DNA of 41,748 nt from a virus. Location: the IMG/VR virus record IMGVR_UViG_3300035703_000175, positions 1 through 41,748 of that record. One strand, written 5' to 3'. The notes under the pieces were generated by a model that saw only the letters and a program-made list of their open reading frames with translations, was not told the DNA's origin and did no database searches. The translations under genes were made by a program, and so were the position numbers. Positions within the stretch are counted from its first letter, which is position 1. Each line of letters opens with the position of its first letter. Below, piece by piece: positions 36,409-41,748 of this stretch.

Positions 36409-36645
36409 CTGTTTTGCGGAAAAATATTTTAGAAATGTGGTGTAACTCACAGAATAAAGTAGGACAAATACGGACATACCTTTACTTTAGTGCAGATTTT
36501 TAGTTGGGGAGTACTAATAGGTAACCCGCGCATTTCACTACCCCCGGGTCGGTTCTTTGTACGGGGCGGGCTTCGGGCGAGGGGGCGCGTTTGCCTGGTT
36601 AGTAACGTAACGGAAGGCGGGCACGGCGAGCGCGGGGGCGCCCCC

Positions 36646-36696
36646 TGTGGATAACCTTTCGTATTTATCAACAGTTTTTCCACAGGTTGTGGATAA
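36646..36696. other. Replication origin candidate: four DnaA boxes
   Basis: Four 9-mers matching the DnaA box or one off it: TGTGGATAA (36646-36654), TTATCAACA (36665-36673), TTTTCCACA (36676-36684), TGTGGATAA (36688-36696). The two outer ones are exact boxes in reverse orientation. They lie in an A/T-rich patch flanked by G+C-rich repeats, beside the early promoter. Host-DnaA-dependent initiation would fit the lack of a phage polymerase. Confidence 0.76.
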
Positions 36697-36763
36697 CTTT
36701 TATTATTGGGGATGGAGGGGCGGGCTGTCCCCCCGGCACTCCCCGGCACTCCCTTTCCCTCCC

Positions 36764-36883: not shown

Positions 36884-36912
36884 TTGACACTATGCCCTAT
36901 AGGCCGTAGTAT
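36884..36912 (+). promoter_or_regulatory. Sigma70-type early promoter
   Basis: TTGACA at 36884-36889 (perfect -35), a 17-base spacer, and TAGTAT at 36907-36912 (4 of 6 match to TATAAT). Expected start about 36919, 34 bases before the first early ATG at 36953. A second TTGACT at 36867 lies upstream as a possible tandem -35. Confidence 0.78.
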
Positions 36913-36939: not shown

Positions 36940-36949
36940 GAAAGGGTAA
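36940..36949 (+). promoter_or_regulatory. Early leader copy 1 (GAAAGGGTAA)
   Basis: Conserved leader ending three bases before the ATG at 36953; the GGG core is six bases from the start. One of five near-identical copies in the plus-strand cluster. Confidence 0.85.
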
Positions 36950-36952
36950 AAA

Positions 36953-37111
36953 ATGATAACTGACGAACTCTATCTAAATCTTCGAGAGTTTTACCGCGAC
37001 AAGGGCGCAAAAGCCTTGAAGGATAACAATATTAGCGAGGCAGATTATTGCTCAGGTGTTGTCCGGGGCTTAGATATAGCCTTCCAAGACGGAACGGCGA
37101 AAAGAATCTAA
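36953..37111 (+). CDS. Early small protein (52 aa)
   Basis: First gene of the plus-strand cluster, directly after the leader copy and about 34 bases downstream of the predicted start. Helical, charged (ELYLNLREFYRDKGAKALKDN...), with one cysteine. No family recognised; by position an immediate-early protein, typically a host-takeover factor. Confidence 0.7.
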   Translation: MITDELYLNLREFYRDKGAKALKDNNISEADYCSGVVRGLDIAFQDGTAKRI

Positions 37112-37117
37112 GGCGAA

Positions 37118-37158
37118 ACGCCCCGCAAGGGGCGTCTAGGGGCAACGGCCTACCCCTA
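37118..37158 (+). other. Tandem hairpins after the first early gene
   Basis: Hairpin 1 (37118-37135): ACGCCCC/GGGGCGT closing a GCAA tetraloop (GNRA type). Hairpin 2 (37137-37158): TAGGGG/CCCCTA with a 10-base loop. Neither is followed by a U-run, so they are not terminators. The same first hairpin recurs almost exactly at 37398-37415. Confidence 0.72.
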
Positions 37159-37180
37159 CTGAAGAGCCAGGCCACTAACT

Positions 37181-37190
37181 GAAAGGGTAA
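37181..37190 (+). promoter_or_regulatory. Early leader copy 2 (GAAAGGGTAA)
   Basis: Exact copy, three bases before the ATG at 37194; the segment GAAAGGGTAAAAAATG is identical to copies 1 and 3. Confidence 0.88.
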
Positions 37191-37193
37191 AAA

Positions 37194-37391
37194 ATGAAAA
37201 TCGAACTCAATGACTTCGTAGCCGGGAAAGTTCCTGCCGTAACTTCGGTGATTCTTCTCAAGGAGACCGCGTGGATAGATTTTTCAGACAAGAGCAGAAT
37301 CTATCTCACGATTGAACAACTCAAGGGAATCGTAGAGCACTACGAGCGAGCACTAGACCGCGAGCAACTTCTCGCCAAACTAGGCAACTAG
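37194..37391 (+). CDS. Early hypothetical protein (65 aa)
   Basis: Small alpha/beta protein: strands (ELNDFVAG, VPAVTSVILLKETAWIDF) followed by a helix (TIEQLKGIVEHYERALDREQLLAKL). No known family. Transcribed with its neighbours from the 36884 promoter. Confidence 0.7.
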   Translation: MKIELNDFVAGKVPAVTSVILLKETAWIDFSDKSRIYLTIEQLKGIVEHYERALDREQLLAKLGN

Positions 37392-37397
37392 GCCGAA

Positions 37398-37449
37398 ACG
37401 CCCCGCAGGGGGCGTCTACCCGTAGGGCGGGTACTGACGAGGCCGTCAG
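37398..37449 (+). other. Three consecutive hairpins after the second early gene
   Basis: 37398-37415: ACGCCCC/GGGGCGT with a GCAG loop. 37417-37433: TACCCG/CGGGTA. 37434-37449: CTGACG/CGTCAG with an AGGC loop. The three stems are stacked head to tail and end six bases before the leader copy at 37455. No U-runs. Confidence 0.75.
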
Positions 37450-37454
37450 ATAGA

Positions 37455-37464
37455 GAAAGGGTAA
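37455..37464 (+). promoter_or_regulatory. Early leader copy 3 (GAAAGGGTAA)
   Basis: Exact copy, three bases before the ATG at 37468, directly after the hairpin array. Confidence 0.88.
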
Positions 37465-37467
37465 AAA

Positions 37468-37776
37468 ATGAGTCAGAACAAGGTACGCGACGTAATCGTC
37501 GGCGAGATACAACACAACGGCGACCGATTCGCGGAAGAGATGAGAGAGTTATTTGACTACCTCGACACTCTCGACCTATCACGAGAGGAGAAGAACACCA
37601 TCTCCTCCTACGCAAATAAGATGTTCTACTTCGGCGAGCGACGTGGACTCCAGAAGGGCGTGGAGAGTGTGAACAATATCCTCTCCGCCGTCTATACCTC
37701 CTGCCGGAGTTCTCAGGAGTATCACTACTGGCAATACAACGGCGAGAGAGTGCTAGAGCAGGGCATCACGGCCTAG
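37468..37776 (+). CDS. Early hypothetical protein (102 aa)
   Basis: Helical and charged (VRDVIVGEIQHNGDRFAEEMRELFDYLDTL..., NTISSYANKMFYFGERRGLQKGVESVNNIL). No motif recognised; the longest of the first three early proteins. Ends in the hairpin region 37773-37828. Confidence 0.7.
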   Translation: MSQNKVRDVIVGEIQHNGDRFAEEMRELFDYLDTLDLSREEKNTISSYANKMFYFGERRGLQKGVESVNNILSAVYTSCRSSQEYHYWQYNGERVLEQGITA

Positions 37777-37828
37777 CGGTTGCCTATCCTTGCCCTGCGA
37801 TAGCAGGGCAGGGGTAGGGGGCAACTAG
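37773..37828 (+). other. Nested hairpin after the third early gene
   Basis: A perfect inner stem TGCCCTGC/GCAGGGCA (37791-37798 and 37803-37810) with a GATA loop, inside an outer stem of TTGCC/GGCAA and CTAG/CTAG arms. No U-run. Third of the four structured spacers. Confidence 0.7.
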
Positions 37829-37840
37829 TCCCACGAGAGA

Positions 37841-37849
37841 AAAGGGTAA
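37841..37849 (+). promoter_or_regulatory. Early leader copy 4 (AAAGGGTAA)
   Basis: One base different at the 5' side (AAAAGGGTAA), three bases before the GTG at 37853. Confidence 0.8.
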
Positions 37850-37852
37850 AGC

Positions 37853-37996
37853 GTGAACATCAAACTGAAAGAGGAAGAGTACGAACTTATTCTATCGGCG
37901 CTACGTTGCGACAGGGTGGGGACGTGGGGAGATGGGCGAGAAGAGGCCATCCAAAAACTAATGAAGAAACTAAAGAGAGAGAGGGCTAACGCGTGA
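37853..37996 (+). CDS. Early small hypothetical protein (47 aa)
   Basis: GTG start after leader copy 4; helical, charged, with one cysteine (LSALRCDRVGTWGDGREEAIQKLMKKLK). Overlaps the next GTG by four bases (GTGA). Unknown. Confidence 0.62.
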   Translation: MNIKLKEEEYELILSALRCDRVGTWGDGREEAIQKLMKKLKRERANA

Positions 37997-38166
37997 AGAA
38001 ATACACAGTACACGGGGCGTACGAGAATCCCAAGCGGGCGAGGAGTTACGCGAGATTCTCCTCACGCTTGGATTACGATACGCGAGAAGAGGCGGAGAAG
38101 TTGCTCGAAGAGTGGAAGAGTGAGAGGGATTACCCGTATCTATGGATTGAGGAGGTGGGCAAGTGA
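37993..38166 (+). CDS. Early small hypothetical protein (57 aa)
   Basis: GTG start overlapping the previous stop (GTGA). Product KKYTVHGAYENPKRARSYARFSSRLDYDTREEAEKLLEEW...: a strand region, then an acidic helix. Second of three GTGA-coupled early genes. Confidence 0.62.
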   Translation: MKKYTVHGAYENPKRARSYARFSSRLDYDTREEAEKLLEEWKSERDYPYLWIEEVGK

Positions 38167-38351
38167 AGGTTTCAGACCTAGCAGTACGAATCGGACAAGT
38201 CGGATATTTACGAACTGAGGCCTTTCGGGTACCGGTGAGGATACTCGAGGGGAAGATGTCCTACGGAGAGCCTCGCTACCTCGTCACCCCGGAAGGGGGA
38301 GAGGGGCAGGCGTGGGTCAATGCGACACGGCTAAACTTTCCTAACGCGTAG
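38163..38351 (+). CDS. Early hypothetical protein (62 aa), beta-rich
   Basis: GTG start overlapping the previous stop (GTGA). Strand-rich (VSDLAVRIGQVGYLRTEAFRVPVRILEGKMSYGEPRYLVTP...), possibly a small SH3-like barrel. No motif. Followed by the hairpin spacer and leader copy 5. Confidence 0.64.
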   Translation: MKVSDLAVRIGQVGYLRTEAFRVPVRILEGKMSYGEPRYLVTPEGGEGQAWVNATRLNFPNA

Positions 38352-38358
38352 TGCTTGA

Positions 38359-38417
38359 CTATCGGAGAGGGGCGAGAGTACCCTCTCCGGTAGCCGGATA
38401 CTAGGCGACCGACCTAG
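38359..38417 (+). other. Two hairpins in the 38351-38437 spacer
   Basis: 38359-38393: 13-base stem CTATCGGAGAGGG/CCCTCTCCGGTAG (one T-G wobble) with a 9-base loop. 38401-38417: CTAGG/CCTAG. The second ends five bases before leader copy 5. No U-run. Confidence 0.74.
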
Positions 38418-38422
38418 AACGG

Positions 38423-38432
38423 GAAAGGGTAA
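38423..38432 (+). promoter_or_regulatory. Early leader copy 5 (GAAAGGGTAA)
   Basis: Exact copy of the ten-base leader, four bases before the ATG at 38437. Last copy on this strand. Confidence 0.85.
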
Positions 38433-38436
38433 AGAA

Positions 38437-38580
38437 ATGAAATGTAAAGAATGTGTAGTAGAGATAAGTAAGTTAGAGGAGTTTCCTGGCGGTATCTGCG
38501 TTAATTGCTACGCAAAAACACCGGAGGCTAACCGCCCTATAACCGCCCGCGAATTGGCGCAAATGTGGGGAGGGAAATAA
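38437..38580 (+). CDS. Early zinc-ribbon protein (47 aa)
   Basis: Two C-x2-C pairs, C3-KE-C6 and C21-VN-C24 (ICVNCYAK), form a clean zinc ribbon; the rest is helical (ANRPITARELAQMW). ATG directly after leader copy 5. Probably binds nucleic acid or a host polymerase subunit; inferred. Confidence 0.7.
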   Translation: MKCKECVVEISKLEEFPGGICVNCYAKTPEANRPITARELAQMWGGK

Positions 38581-39253: not shown

Positions 39254-39470
39254 CCAATGCGGGAAAGAGATTATCTCTGACCATTGGCGCAACGGGAGAA
39301 ACCCGGCGCCTCTCTGCTCCTACCTCTGCCTACTTATCCAGGGAGAAGTGGACGAGATGGAGGAATACTATCGGGCGCTAGGTTCTACCGCGCCCGATGA
39401 GGAGATTGAGTACGCGATACAACTAGGCAAAGAGAAGTACAAGCGAGAGAGTGAGAGGGCAAGAATATGA
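39243..39470 (+). CDS. Early zinc-ribbon-like protein (75 aa)
   Basis: The GTG at 39243 (GGGGGAG just upstream) is preferred over 39219. Cysteines CNQC and CSYLC are spaced as a zinc ribbon, followed by an acidic helix. Overlaps both neighbours (39253; 39467). DNA- or protein-binding role likely but not shown. Confidence 0.65.
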   Translation: MKCNQCGKEIISDHWRNGRNPAPLCSYLCLLIQGEVDEMEEYYRALGSTAPDEEIEYAIQLGKEKYKRESERARI

Positions 39471-40381: not shown

Positions 40382-40390
40382 TGATACAAT
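40382..40390 (+). promoter_or_regulatory. Extended -10 promoter for the predicted small RNA
   Basis: TGATACAAT fits the extended -10 form (TG-n-TATAAT, one mismatch). No good -35 is present, which extended -10 promoters tolerate. Predicted start at or near 40397, the first base of the RNA's first stem. Confidence 0.58.
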
Positions 40391-40396
40391 AAACTT

Positions 40397-40474
40397 GTAG
40401 CGTCGAGCGTATTCTTACCCTTTCCGCTCCGCTACATCTAAGCCCCGTCTACCCTTTCGGACGGGGCTTTCTAA
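40397..40474 (+). ncRNA. Predicted small antisense RNA with two UACCCUUUC loops
   Basis: From the predicted start to the terminator, about 75 bases, the RNA folds into two hairpins. Hairpin 1 (40397-40435): GUAGCG/CGCUAC then GAGCG/CGCUC, 11 bp in all with a 2-base bulge, loop UAUUCUUACCCUUUC. Hairpin 2 is the terminator (10-bp stem), loop UACCCUUUCG. Both loops carry UACCCUUUC, the exact reverse complement of GAAAGGGUA in the early leaders. It could pair with and cover the ribosome-binding region of five early mRNAs. No ORF in it. Confidence 0.7.
40440..40474 (+). terminator. Terminator of the early operon (and of the predicted small RNA)
   Basis: AAGCCCCGTC/GACGGGGCTT, 10-bp stem with a 10-base loop, then TTTCTAATT on the plus strand. 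On the minus strand the trailing T content is weak, so it mainly stops plus transcription; the converging minus operon ends at the FmdB gene whose stop is at 40471. Confidence 0.88.
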
Positions 40475-40647
40475 TTGTCAGTAGAATAAAAGCCAGTACC
40501 CTTGAACTGAATAGAAGGCGCCGACCACACGCGGGTCATCTGTACACCGCAGAAGTTACACGCAGGGTTCGGTCTATCTTCATCAACACCGCGCTCTATC
40601 TCTAGGTAGTTAGCGCAGAACTCACATCTATAAGGATAGAGGGGCAT
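40471..40647 (-). CDS. FmdB-family zinc-ribbon protein (58 aa)
   Basis: MPLYPYRCEFC...NPACNFCGVQM: two C-x2-C pairs at 8/11 and 30/33, then the family ending (FKGTGFYSTDN), where GFY-x-TD is characteristic of FmdB-like zinc ribbons. Such proteins are annotated as putative regulatory proteins; the true function is unclear. ATG at 40647, AAGG at a suitable distance. Last gene of the minus-strand early operon, overlapping its upstream neighbour by 20 bases. Confidence 0.85.
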   Translation of the reverse strand: MPLYPYRCEFCANYLEIERGVDEDRPNPACNFCGVQMTRVWSAPSIQFKGTGFYSTDN

Positions 40648-41044
40648 AGAGTACCTTACCTAACGAGGTGGGCAAAAAGCCCACAATTTTCCCTATTTTT
40701 GAGCGGTTTCCAAACTCGGTAGTGGCAGGCATAAGTCGCTCACTCCACTCTGGTTCGAACTCTTGTTGTAAATGGAAAGCGTATATACCATCTGGTGTTG
40801 AGTTGATGTACCACGCATCGAGGTCTTGACTGTGAGCGTGGAGGACCAGGTTATCCCATTTACTTTTTTCAATGAGCAAATCCGGATAGTGCGTTCGACG
40901 ACACTTGAGTTCGGCATAGACTCCTGCTTTCTGTGACACACAATCAAAGGTGTCGTACGTGTTACCTGATTTTATCAGGTCGTTGTAGTGGTAGGTCTTG
41001 AGGTACTCGAATAACTGAGCCTCTTGTAGTGTGCCTAACTCCAC
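40628..41044 (-). CDS. PD-(D/E)XK nuclease (phage endonuclease-like)
   Basis: 138 residues from the GTG at 41044 (GGAGGGG upstream), overlapping the sigma-factor stop by 10 bases; the frame is open further back to 41095 but that part is inside the sigma gene. Motif: YDTFDCV (D34), then YAELKCRRTHYPDLLIE with E45 and K47, giving a PD-(D/E)XK active-site plan. Role unclear (host DNA degradation or restriction-like defence); the sequence suggests a nuclease, not which. Confidence 0.7.
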   Translation of the reverse strand: MELGTLQEAQLFEYLKTYHYNDLIKSGNTYDTFDCVSQKAGVYAELKCRRTHYPDLLIEKSKWDNLVLHAHSQDLDAWYINSTPDGIYAFHLQQEFEPEWSERLMPATTEFGNRSKIGKIVGFLPTSLGKVLYAPLSL

Positions 41045-41691
41045 GGGTTGTCCCCTCCGATGACTCGCTGTAACGCCTTGAGGGCGTTCTCGCACCGCCT
41101 ATCGGCAGTAGATACTGAGCAACCAAACATCTCTGCCATCTGCTGTAACTTCAACTCGTCATAGTAACGAGCCTTGATGTAGTCGCAGTGGTTGGTCTCA
41201 TCTTTTCTATCTTGGTGTTCTAAGATTTCATAGCCACGTTTAATATCTATCAACATCGCCAGGAGATTACGTCCTTCGGATGGAGCAGAGGAGCGACGTG
41301 GCATACCATCATCCACTAACTGTTGCGCCTGCTCTAATAAGATTCCATCAAAGATATTGCGGAGGATATGCGGCATCATCTGTGCGATGGTGCTGGTCTC
41401 ATAGAAGTATTCATCTCCGGTCAGATAGCCGGAGCGATGTGCCTTTTCCTTGCGAGCATAACGTTCGCACGCACGAAGTATCTGCCACCCTACACGCTTG
41501 AGATTATATTTACGAGCCTCGGCATCTGGCTCATCAAATGCTTGACTAAGATAGTCCACTCTGGTTACGCACCAAAGCATACCTTCCTGAATTAAATCTT
41601 CTCTATCTACCCAACGGCCGTACCTTCTATGTACTACTGCCGCTCTCTCTTTCACCAACTCGTCTACGCCATCTGGAAGGATTCTAGTCAC
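41035..41691 (-). CDS. Phage-encoded sigma factor (sigma70 family, ECF-like)
   Basis: 218 residues from the GTG at 41691. Sigma region 2 is recognisable as RRYGRWVDREDLIQEGMLWCVTR (about 22-44; the VDREDLIQEG core is strongly sigma-like), then a helical linker, and region 4 as YDELKLQQMAEMFGCSVSTADRRCENALKALQRV (about 178-210), a helix-turn-helix for the -35 element. It would direct host RNA polymerase to a phage-specific promoter, most simply the late genes. Neighbours are nuclease genes and the primase, so it belongs to the early operon. Confidence 0.88.
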   Translation of the reverse strand: MTRILPDGVDELVKERAAVVHRRYGRWVDREDLIQEGMLWCVTRVDYLSQAFDEPDAEARKYNLKRVGWQILRACERYARKEKAHRSGYLTGDEYFYETSTIAQMMPHILRNIFDGILLEQAQQLVDDGMPRRSSAPSEGRNLLAMLIDIKRGYEILEHQDRKDETNHCDYIKARYYDELKLQQMAEMFGCSVSTADRRCENALKALQRVIGGDNPWS

Positions 41692-41748
41692 AATCTATAA
41701 TCGACTCCTTGATAGTGGGAGATAGGCTGAGTATCCTGATAGCAAGAA
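41622..41748. repeat. Terminal direct repeat, right copy (circular contig overlap)
   Basis: Identical to bases 1-127; see the left copy. The overlap includes the start of the sigma-factor gene and the end of 63-377. Confidence 0.93.

Follow-up and report, generated by a model that had tools for sequence, protein, structure and literature searches.

Early operon and its repeated leader

The window, that is, the whole 41,748 nt of an IMG/VR virus record, contains an early operon whose sigma-70-type promoter lies about 30 nt upstream of the first copy of a short leader, GAAAGGGTAA (Table 1). Five early genes are preceded by this leader, one of them by an altered copy (AAAAGGGTAA) that stands before the first gene of a coupled trio, and the gap between leader and start codon is 3 bases for the copies at 36940, 37181, 37455 and 37840 and 4 bases for the copy at 38423. 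This arrangement, which had been proposed in the initial annotation, was confirmed and lies far above chance: the motif R-AAAGGGTAA occurs six times in the genome, compared with 0.21 copies expected, and none of 100 dinucleotide shuffles reached six. The sixth copy, at 40415 on the minus strand, was the key to the small-RNA finding presented below. Moreover, the start-stop-coupled or nearly overlapping genes at 37993, 38163 and 38582 lack the leader, as had been stated, and the view that the leader marks translation units is supported. Leader and hairpins are also kept together in related phages, with other genes behind them. Each leader contains a Shine-Dalgarno sequence (GAAAGG) and a GTAA tail, and its conservation beyond the Shine-Dalgarno part, for which the first reading of the sequence had not seen the reason, apparently arises because the leader is the target of a co-varying small RNA of the phage.

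Table 1. Features of the early operon and of the candidate small RNA
Feature	Position	Strand	Basis
Sigma-70-type promoter of the early operon, TTGACA-17-TAGTAT	36884-36912	+	10/12 consensus matches
Leader 1, GAAAGGGTAA, before gene 36953-37111	36940-36949	+	exact copy
Type II hammerhead ribozyme 1, beginning at the stop codon of gene 1	37108-37176	+	RF02276 (match 37111-37176), 35.8 bits, just under the gathering score of 37; core
Leader 2, GAAAGGGTAA, before gene 37194-37391	37181-37190	+	exact copy
Type II hammerhead ribozyme 2	37388-37451	+	RF02276 (match 37391-37451), 43.5 bits, above the gathering score of 37
Leader 3, GAAAGGGTAA, before gene 37468-37776	37455-37464	+	exact copy
'Class B' conserved hairpin element, spacer 3	37770-37832	+	compensatory changes; absent from Rfam
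Leader 4, AAAAGGGTAA, before gene 37853-37996 (GTG start)	37840-37849	+	variant copy
'Class C' conserved hairpin element, spacer 4, followed by conserved CCTAGAACGGG	38345-38409	+	kept in relatives
Leader 5, GAAAGGGTAA, before gene 38437-38580	38423-38432	+	exact copy
Extended -10 (TGATACAAT) of the candidate small RNA	40382-40390	+	sequence; TANNNT here in relatives
Candidate small RNA, about 80 nt, immediately following the operon's last gene	40396-40475	+	fold; kept in relatives
Small-RNA hairpin 1	40396-40436	+	fold
Anti-leader in loop 1, TTACCCTTTC	40415-40424	+	10/10 complementary to GAAAGGGTAA
Small-RNA hairpin 2, intrinsic terminator with T-rich tail	40440-40469	+	fold
Anti-leader in terminator loop, TACCCTTTC	40450-40458	+	9/9 complementary to GAAAGGGTA

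The genome is most likely complete, circular or terminally redundant, with a length of about 41.6 kb, because an exact 127-bp direct repeat occupies both ends of the record (1-127 and 41622-41748). Its gene content (terminase, major head, tail fibres, primase and DnaB-type helicase) is that of a tailed phage. An actinobacterial host is plausible, since the terminase is nearest to those of unclassified Caudovirales and Streptomyces phages (43-45% identity), and terminases about 80% identical to it are present in very many IMG/VR contigs. A Megablast search with the right half of the genome gave no match among known phages, and no relatives were found in the bacterial genome contigs searched with the sigma-like gene adjoining the small RNA. 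On the minus strand, positions 41035-41691 encode a sigma-70-region-2/4-like protein, which is kept throughout the phage group, reads toward the small RNA from the opposite side and may drive late transcription. Furthermore, the non-coding stretch between the terminase and the early operon (36640-36710) carries TGTGGATAA boxes that correspond to the DnaA-box consensus on the minus strand, and it is a possible replication origin.

Structured spacers between the translation units

The four internal leaders were found to sit behind structured spacers, in agreement with the initial annotation. Spacers 2, 3 and 4 fold better than shuffled sequences (z of -3.2, -5.4 and -4.9, respectively), while spacer 1 folds no better than shuffles (z -0.8) and yet matches the hammerhead model. 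The common stem reported for spacers 1 and 2 (ACGCCCC-GCAA/GCAG-GGGGCGT) is present as described. The spacers do not look like intrinsic terminators, as a U-run after the stem is absent at all four arrays, where no terminator was called on the plus strand.

Spacers 1 and 2 are type II hammerhead ribozymes and are predicted to be self-cleaving, between 37136 and 37137 and between 37416 and 37417, respectively. Both have the catalytic core of Rfam family RF02276, whose curated score is reached by spacer 2 and marginally missed by spacer 1. The core (CGAAAC / GTC / CTGA[ACT]GA) is intact in all eight aligned copies, taking the form CTGAAGA in spacer 1, and the copies of relatives score 39-45.7 bits against the same family. 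A model built from the hammerhead copies found 12 matches in 100 related loci, every one of them located on the early strand, with 12-24 nt separating it from the start codon that follows. The sequence of spacer 1 allows pairing between the stem I loop (GGCCT) and the 3' tail (AGGCC), and type II hammerheads are reported to form a pseudoknot of this kind (PMC3088659). An alternative hairpin that would switch the ribozyme off can form in hammerhead 2 and several relatives, by pairing of the core CTGACGA with the next CGTCAG (37434-37449, CTGACG-AGGC-CGTCAG).

Spacers 3 and 4 each form a long, imperfect hairpin that shows compensatory changes and lacks a U-run, and they may serve RNase III-like cutting or insulation. 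Among 13 class B sequences, 9 of the 18 pairs show compensatory changes; the consensus is TGCCTWTCCT ... GGGGWGGGGRG, with persistent G-U pairs. The class B model (R2) found about 45 copies in roughly a third of 100 related loci, and for nearly all of these copies a start codon follows after 15-36 nt (for example, L379 3793-3858, L288 7181-7245 and L229 4209-4273). Class B acts as a movable cassette ahead of unrelated early genes, and it may represent a processing element or ribozyme of a new kind. The class C element, likewise absent from Rfam, matches the class B model weakly (21.5 bits), and an Rfam search with the spacers of the relative L121 returned no known family.

The initial annotation had favoured processing over termination, with an RNase III-like enzyme as the agent. 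The first part is supported; the second gives way at spacers 1 and 2, where the RF02276 matches with intact cores make hammerhead self-cleavage likelier, so that the processing would be by ribozymes, while spacers 3 and 4 are hairpins of other kinds. The broader model, in which host RNase III cuts all the spacers as in T7 early mRNA and the leader is incidental, draws on the long stems without U-runs of spacers 3 and 4. It is nevertheless unlikely, given the hammerhead ribozymes of spacers 1 and 2, and it leaves both the leader and the antisense loops unexplained.

A candidate small RNA that co-varies with the leader

The 87-nt region of the candidate small RNA has a folding energy of -35.6 kcal/mol (z -6.9), reached by none of 200 shuffles. 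Exact antisense copies of GAAAGGGTA occur only at 40416-40424 and 40450-40458 in the 41.7 kb, on the operon strand and 34 nt apart, and both lie in hairpin loops of this stable two-hairpin RNA; none of 200 first-order random genomes contained two antisense copies less than 50 nt apart. The predicted duplex of the leader with a small-RNA loop has an energy of -13.7/-14.1 kcal/mol, compared with -8.5 kcal/mol for the consensus 16S tail. In a duplex-energy ranking of 979 candidate starts that permitted G-U pairs, the five leaders did not stand cleanly apart from other purine-rich stretches. A possible sixth target of the RNA is the leader GAGAGGGCAAGAAT of gene 39467 (39449-39466), which forms a 14-nt pairing with loop 1 that includes one mismatch and one wobble.

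The RNA is kept in close relatives (L006/L114, L009, L010, L011, L092, L094 and L197), and those long enough to show them have four to six or more leaders before partly different genes. A scan of viral contigs for two close copies of TACCCTTTC returned 83 stretches, among which leaders before same-strand start codons were found only in the lineage of this phage. In distant relatives, the corresponding slot lies between the transglycosylase-like gene of the operon and a convergent small gene, and in dozens of diverged relatives it holds a -10 element, a hairpin with a pyrimidine-rich loop and a terminator, with other loop sequences. A TANNNT -10 appeared in the slot in 31 of 34 distinct relatives, compared with 9.1 in shuffles. 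Hairpin 1 reached a covariation score of 0.489 against 0.262 in a MAFFT alignment of 12 diverged copies, with none of 500 shuffles reaching 0.489 and all slid versions staying below 0.18. In the terminator loops of L371, L382, L402, L227 and others, a conserved ACCAAGAGTGCTAAC replaces the anti-leader.

The first case in which both partners differed was L121, with the leader AAGGGGTA present five to six times and the terminator loop TACCCCTT. Across 111 genomes, 240 leader sites had an 8-mer complementary to their own RNA, compared with 86 expected from unrelated genomes and 103 in a wrong-direction control (complement not reversed), counts that include members of one lineage and are not independent. 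Seven leaders were enriched where the loop was complementary (GAAAGGGTA, AAGGGGTA, GAAAGGATAA, GGAAGGGTG, GAAAGAGAG, TGAAGGGA and GAAAGGTAG; Table 2). When the loop types were permuted against the leader sets, the observed trace was 26.4 compared with 6.3, and none of 100,000 permutations reached it; the loops had first been selected visually for being rich in pyrimidines, and the types were listed after viewing them and before the tests. Loop types were used instead of single-linkage clusters of the RNA zone, which numbered just five.

Table 2. Loop types and the frequency of their complementary leaders
Loop	Leader	Sites per own genome	Sites per other genome
TACCCTTTC	GAAAGGGTA	2.33	0.07
TTATCCTTTC	GAAAGGATA(A)	1.44	0.09
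CTCTCTTTC	GAAAGAGAG	2.17	0.23
CTACCTTTC	GAAAGGTAG	1.0	0.01
CACCCTTCC	GGAAGGGTG	0.5	0
TACCCCTT	AAGGGGTA	3.5	0.14
TCCCTTCA	TGAAGGGA	3.0	0.06

The pairings with the own RNA extend to 20 nt in L379, 14 nt in L288 and L114, and 12 nt in L399 and L266, reaching past any Shine-Dalgarno sequence. The clearest single case is offered by a spacer cassette ending in CTCCAATTATG. This cassette is followed by GAAAGGATAAG (sharing the last G of the cassette) in L399, L288, L398 and L379, where the loop is CTTATCCTTTC or TTATCCTTTC, and by GAAAGAGAGAGA in L229, whose loop is TCTCTCTTTC, the genes behind it being non-homologous. Taken with the seven types, this case is hard to explain by descent alone. A counter-example is L216, in which the leader GAAAGGATAAG occurs with a TCTCTCTTTC loop. 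Matches of at least 8 nt to the own small RNA were found for 80% of the starts behind a hammerhead and 62% of those behind class B, compared with 5% of all candidates. On the other hand, own leaders were not the best match in about a dozen of the 19 loop types (for example, TACCCTTCCT, AACCCTTCC, TAACCCTTTCC and ATACCCTTTC), so that either the targets differ there or wobbles and mismatches are tolerated.

These results bear on three further explanations. The small RNA might mainly hit host messages, as a mimic of the 16S anti-Shine-Dalgarno sequence that shuts off the host, with the leaders acting as sponges or being kept pairable for titration; the loops of many relatives do equal the 16S anti-Shine-Dalgarno sequence, and some loop types have no matching phage leaders, but in seven types the loop follows the leader of its own phage, including bases outside the Shine-Dalgarno sequence, which makes this reading improbable. 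It is very unlikely that the leaders are ordinary strong Shine-Dalgarno sequences, alike through recent cassette duplication, whose complementarity to the loops reflects only a shared likeness to the 16S tail. GAAAGG is indeed part of the leader, the loops CCTCCTTTC and CCTCTTCC of several relatives are identical or close to the 16S tail, and loop types of this kind show weak or no specific matching (where the loop equals the tail, CCTCCTTTC, the targets may be general). However, the match continues into bases without a pairing partner in 16S (GTAA, ATAAG and GTAG), over up to 20 nt, seven types co-vary, and the wrong-direction control gave 103 sites against 240. Finally, the repeats might be DNA sites for a repressor, comparable to the stoperators of mycobacteriophage L5, which are one-directional, with the operon end carrying two inverted copies. 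This would suit short, asymmetric repeats that all point the same way within the operon and are reversed at its end, but it has hardly any likelihood, as the spacing between leader and start codon is fixed and the leader also serves as a Shine-Dalgarno sequence, the inverted copies lie in hairpin loops (one of them a terminator's) whose stems co-vary in relatives, and the co-varying pairings have several lengths.

Proposed regulation and its closest known counterparts

The best explanation, and probably the right one, is that a phage-encoded antisense RNA resembling LhrC blocks the Shine-Dalgarno sequences of self-processed early mRNA units. Host polymerase would make a polycistronic early RNA from the single sigma-70-type promoter, and the hammerheads in two spacers and the other conserved hairpins in two more would split it into short mRNAs, each with hairpin-capped ends and the same leader at its opening. 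Should a hammerhead cleave, stem III would close the resulting 3' end, and stem I the 5' end, which lies upstream of the leader. The units would be translated until the small RNA, which would be produced from a separate promoter at the end of the operon, accumulates; its two loops (TTACCCTTTC and TACCCTTTC) would then mask the Shine-Dalgarno sequences of all five units at once, since each loop can pair with the leader. Among the parts of this scheme, the predicted pairing of leader and loop is strongly supported, and sequence comparison also supports the leader, the hammerhead cores, the RNA structure and the loop/leader co-variation, while we infer RNA production, ribozyme cutting in the cell, repression rather than activation, and timing.

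The joint change of leader and loop across relatives points to one RNA that would switch a whole set of phage genes. The likely role of this RNA is to shut off the early proteins, or to control their dosage, in a coordinated way. Since no relative was found in the bacterial genome contigs, a temporal switch or the exclusion of superinfecting kin is more likely than lysogenic immunity. A more speculative possibility, which we regard as rather doubtful, is a modular, RNA-only early control in which interchangeable cassettes (hammerhead, class B or C, some perhaps new self-cleaving ribozymes) combine with the leader into plug-in expression units. The matched small RNA would then serve each lineage as its own 'password', shutting off early genes and keeping out superinfecting phages that share the leader, and the pairs would diverge as in heteroimmunity.

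If the antisense reading is true, an abundant group of uncultured phages controls a set of its early genes by one antisense RNA, not by a repressor protein, and the controlled mRNAs cut themselves apart. Natural hammerheads would moreover gain a clear operon context and a partner, and leader recognition would be predictable from sequence alone in many genomes. A standard reporter strain allows matching loop/leader pairs to be tested without the phage. In the open literature, to which the search was confined (subscription papers being outside its scope), no paper describing such an RNA in phages was found.

Among phages, the nearest precedent is the c4 antisense RNA of P1 and P7. Its loops base-pair in the region of the ribosome-binding site in a phage mRNA, and their specificity differs between related phages (PMC12197685). 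A search against all Rfam families gave no C4 match. The c4 RNA controls one antirepressor gene in a temperate phage, whereas the small RNA considered here is separate and faces five or more units, in a phage group without a relative found in bacterial genome contigs. A hammerhead has also been reported from a virus, where it lies shortly before the start codon of an early gene (PMC3088659). Spacers 1 and 2 resemble the reported type II hammerheads (RF02276, PMC3088659) in their open stem II and CGAAAC / GUC / CUGANGA core, but differ in being repeated spacers of one operon, each before a leader that is a putative small-RNA target, and in alternating with other conserved hairpins.

In its architecture, the small RNA resembles LhrC of Listeria monocytogenes, whose stem-loops carry CU-rich motifs in the first and terminator loops and bind over Shine-Dalgarno sequences without needing Hfq (PMC4132741). 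Like LhrC, it is a short structured RNA, presumably transcribed, with a putative promoter of its own and an intrinsic terminator; it has two stem-loops, with the target-binding motif in the first loop and the terminator loop, and these loops are complementary to the ribosome-binding sites of the targets, with co-variation. In contrast, LhrC is encoded by the host and its targets are scattered, while the small RNA is phage-encoded and faces a repeated identical leader in one operon; moreover, loop and leader co-diversify in the phage system, unlike in LhrC. Other small RNAs with UCCC motifs, such as RNAIII and RsaE, mask Shine-Dalgarno sequences with C-rich loops (named in PMC4132741). Those RNAs are cellular and their UCCC motif is generic, whereas the loop of the phage small RNA is specific to the leader of its own phage.
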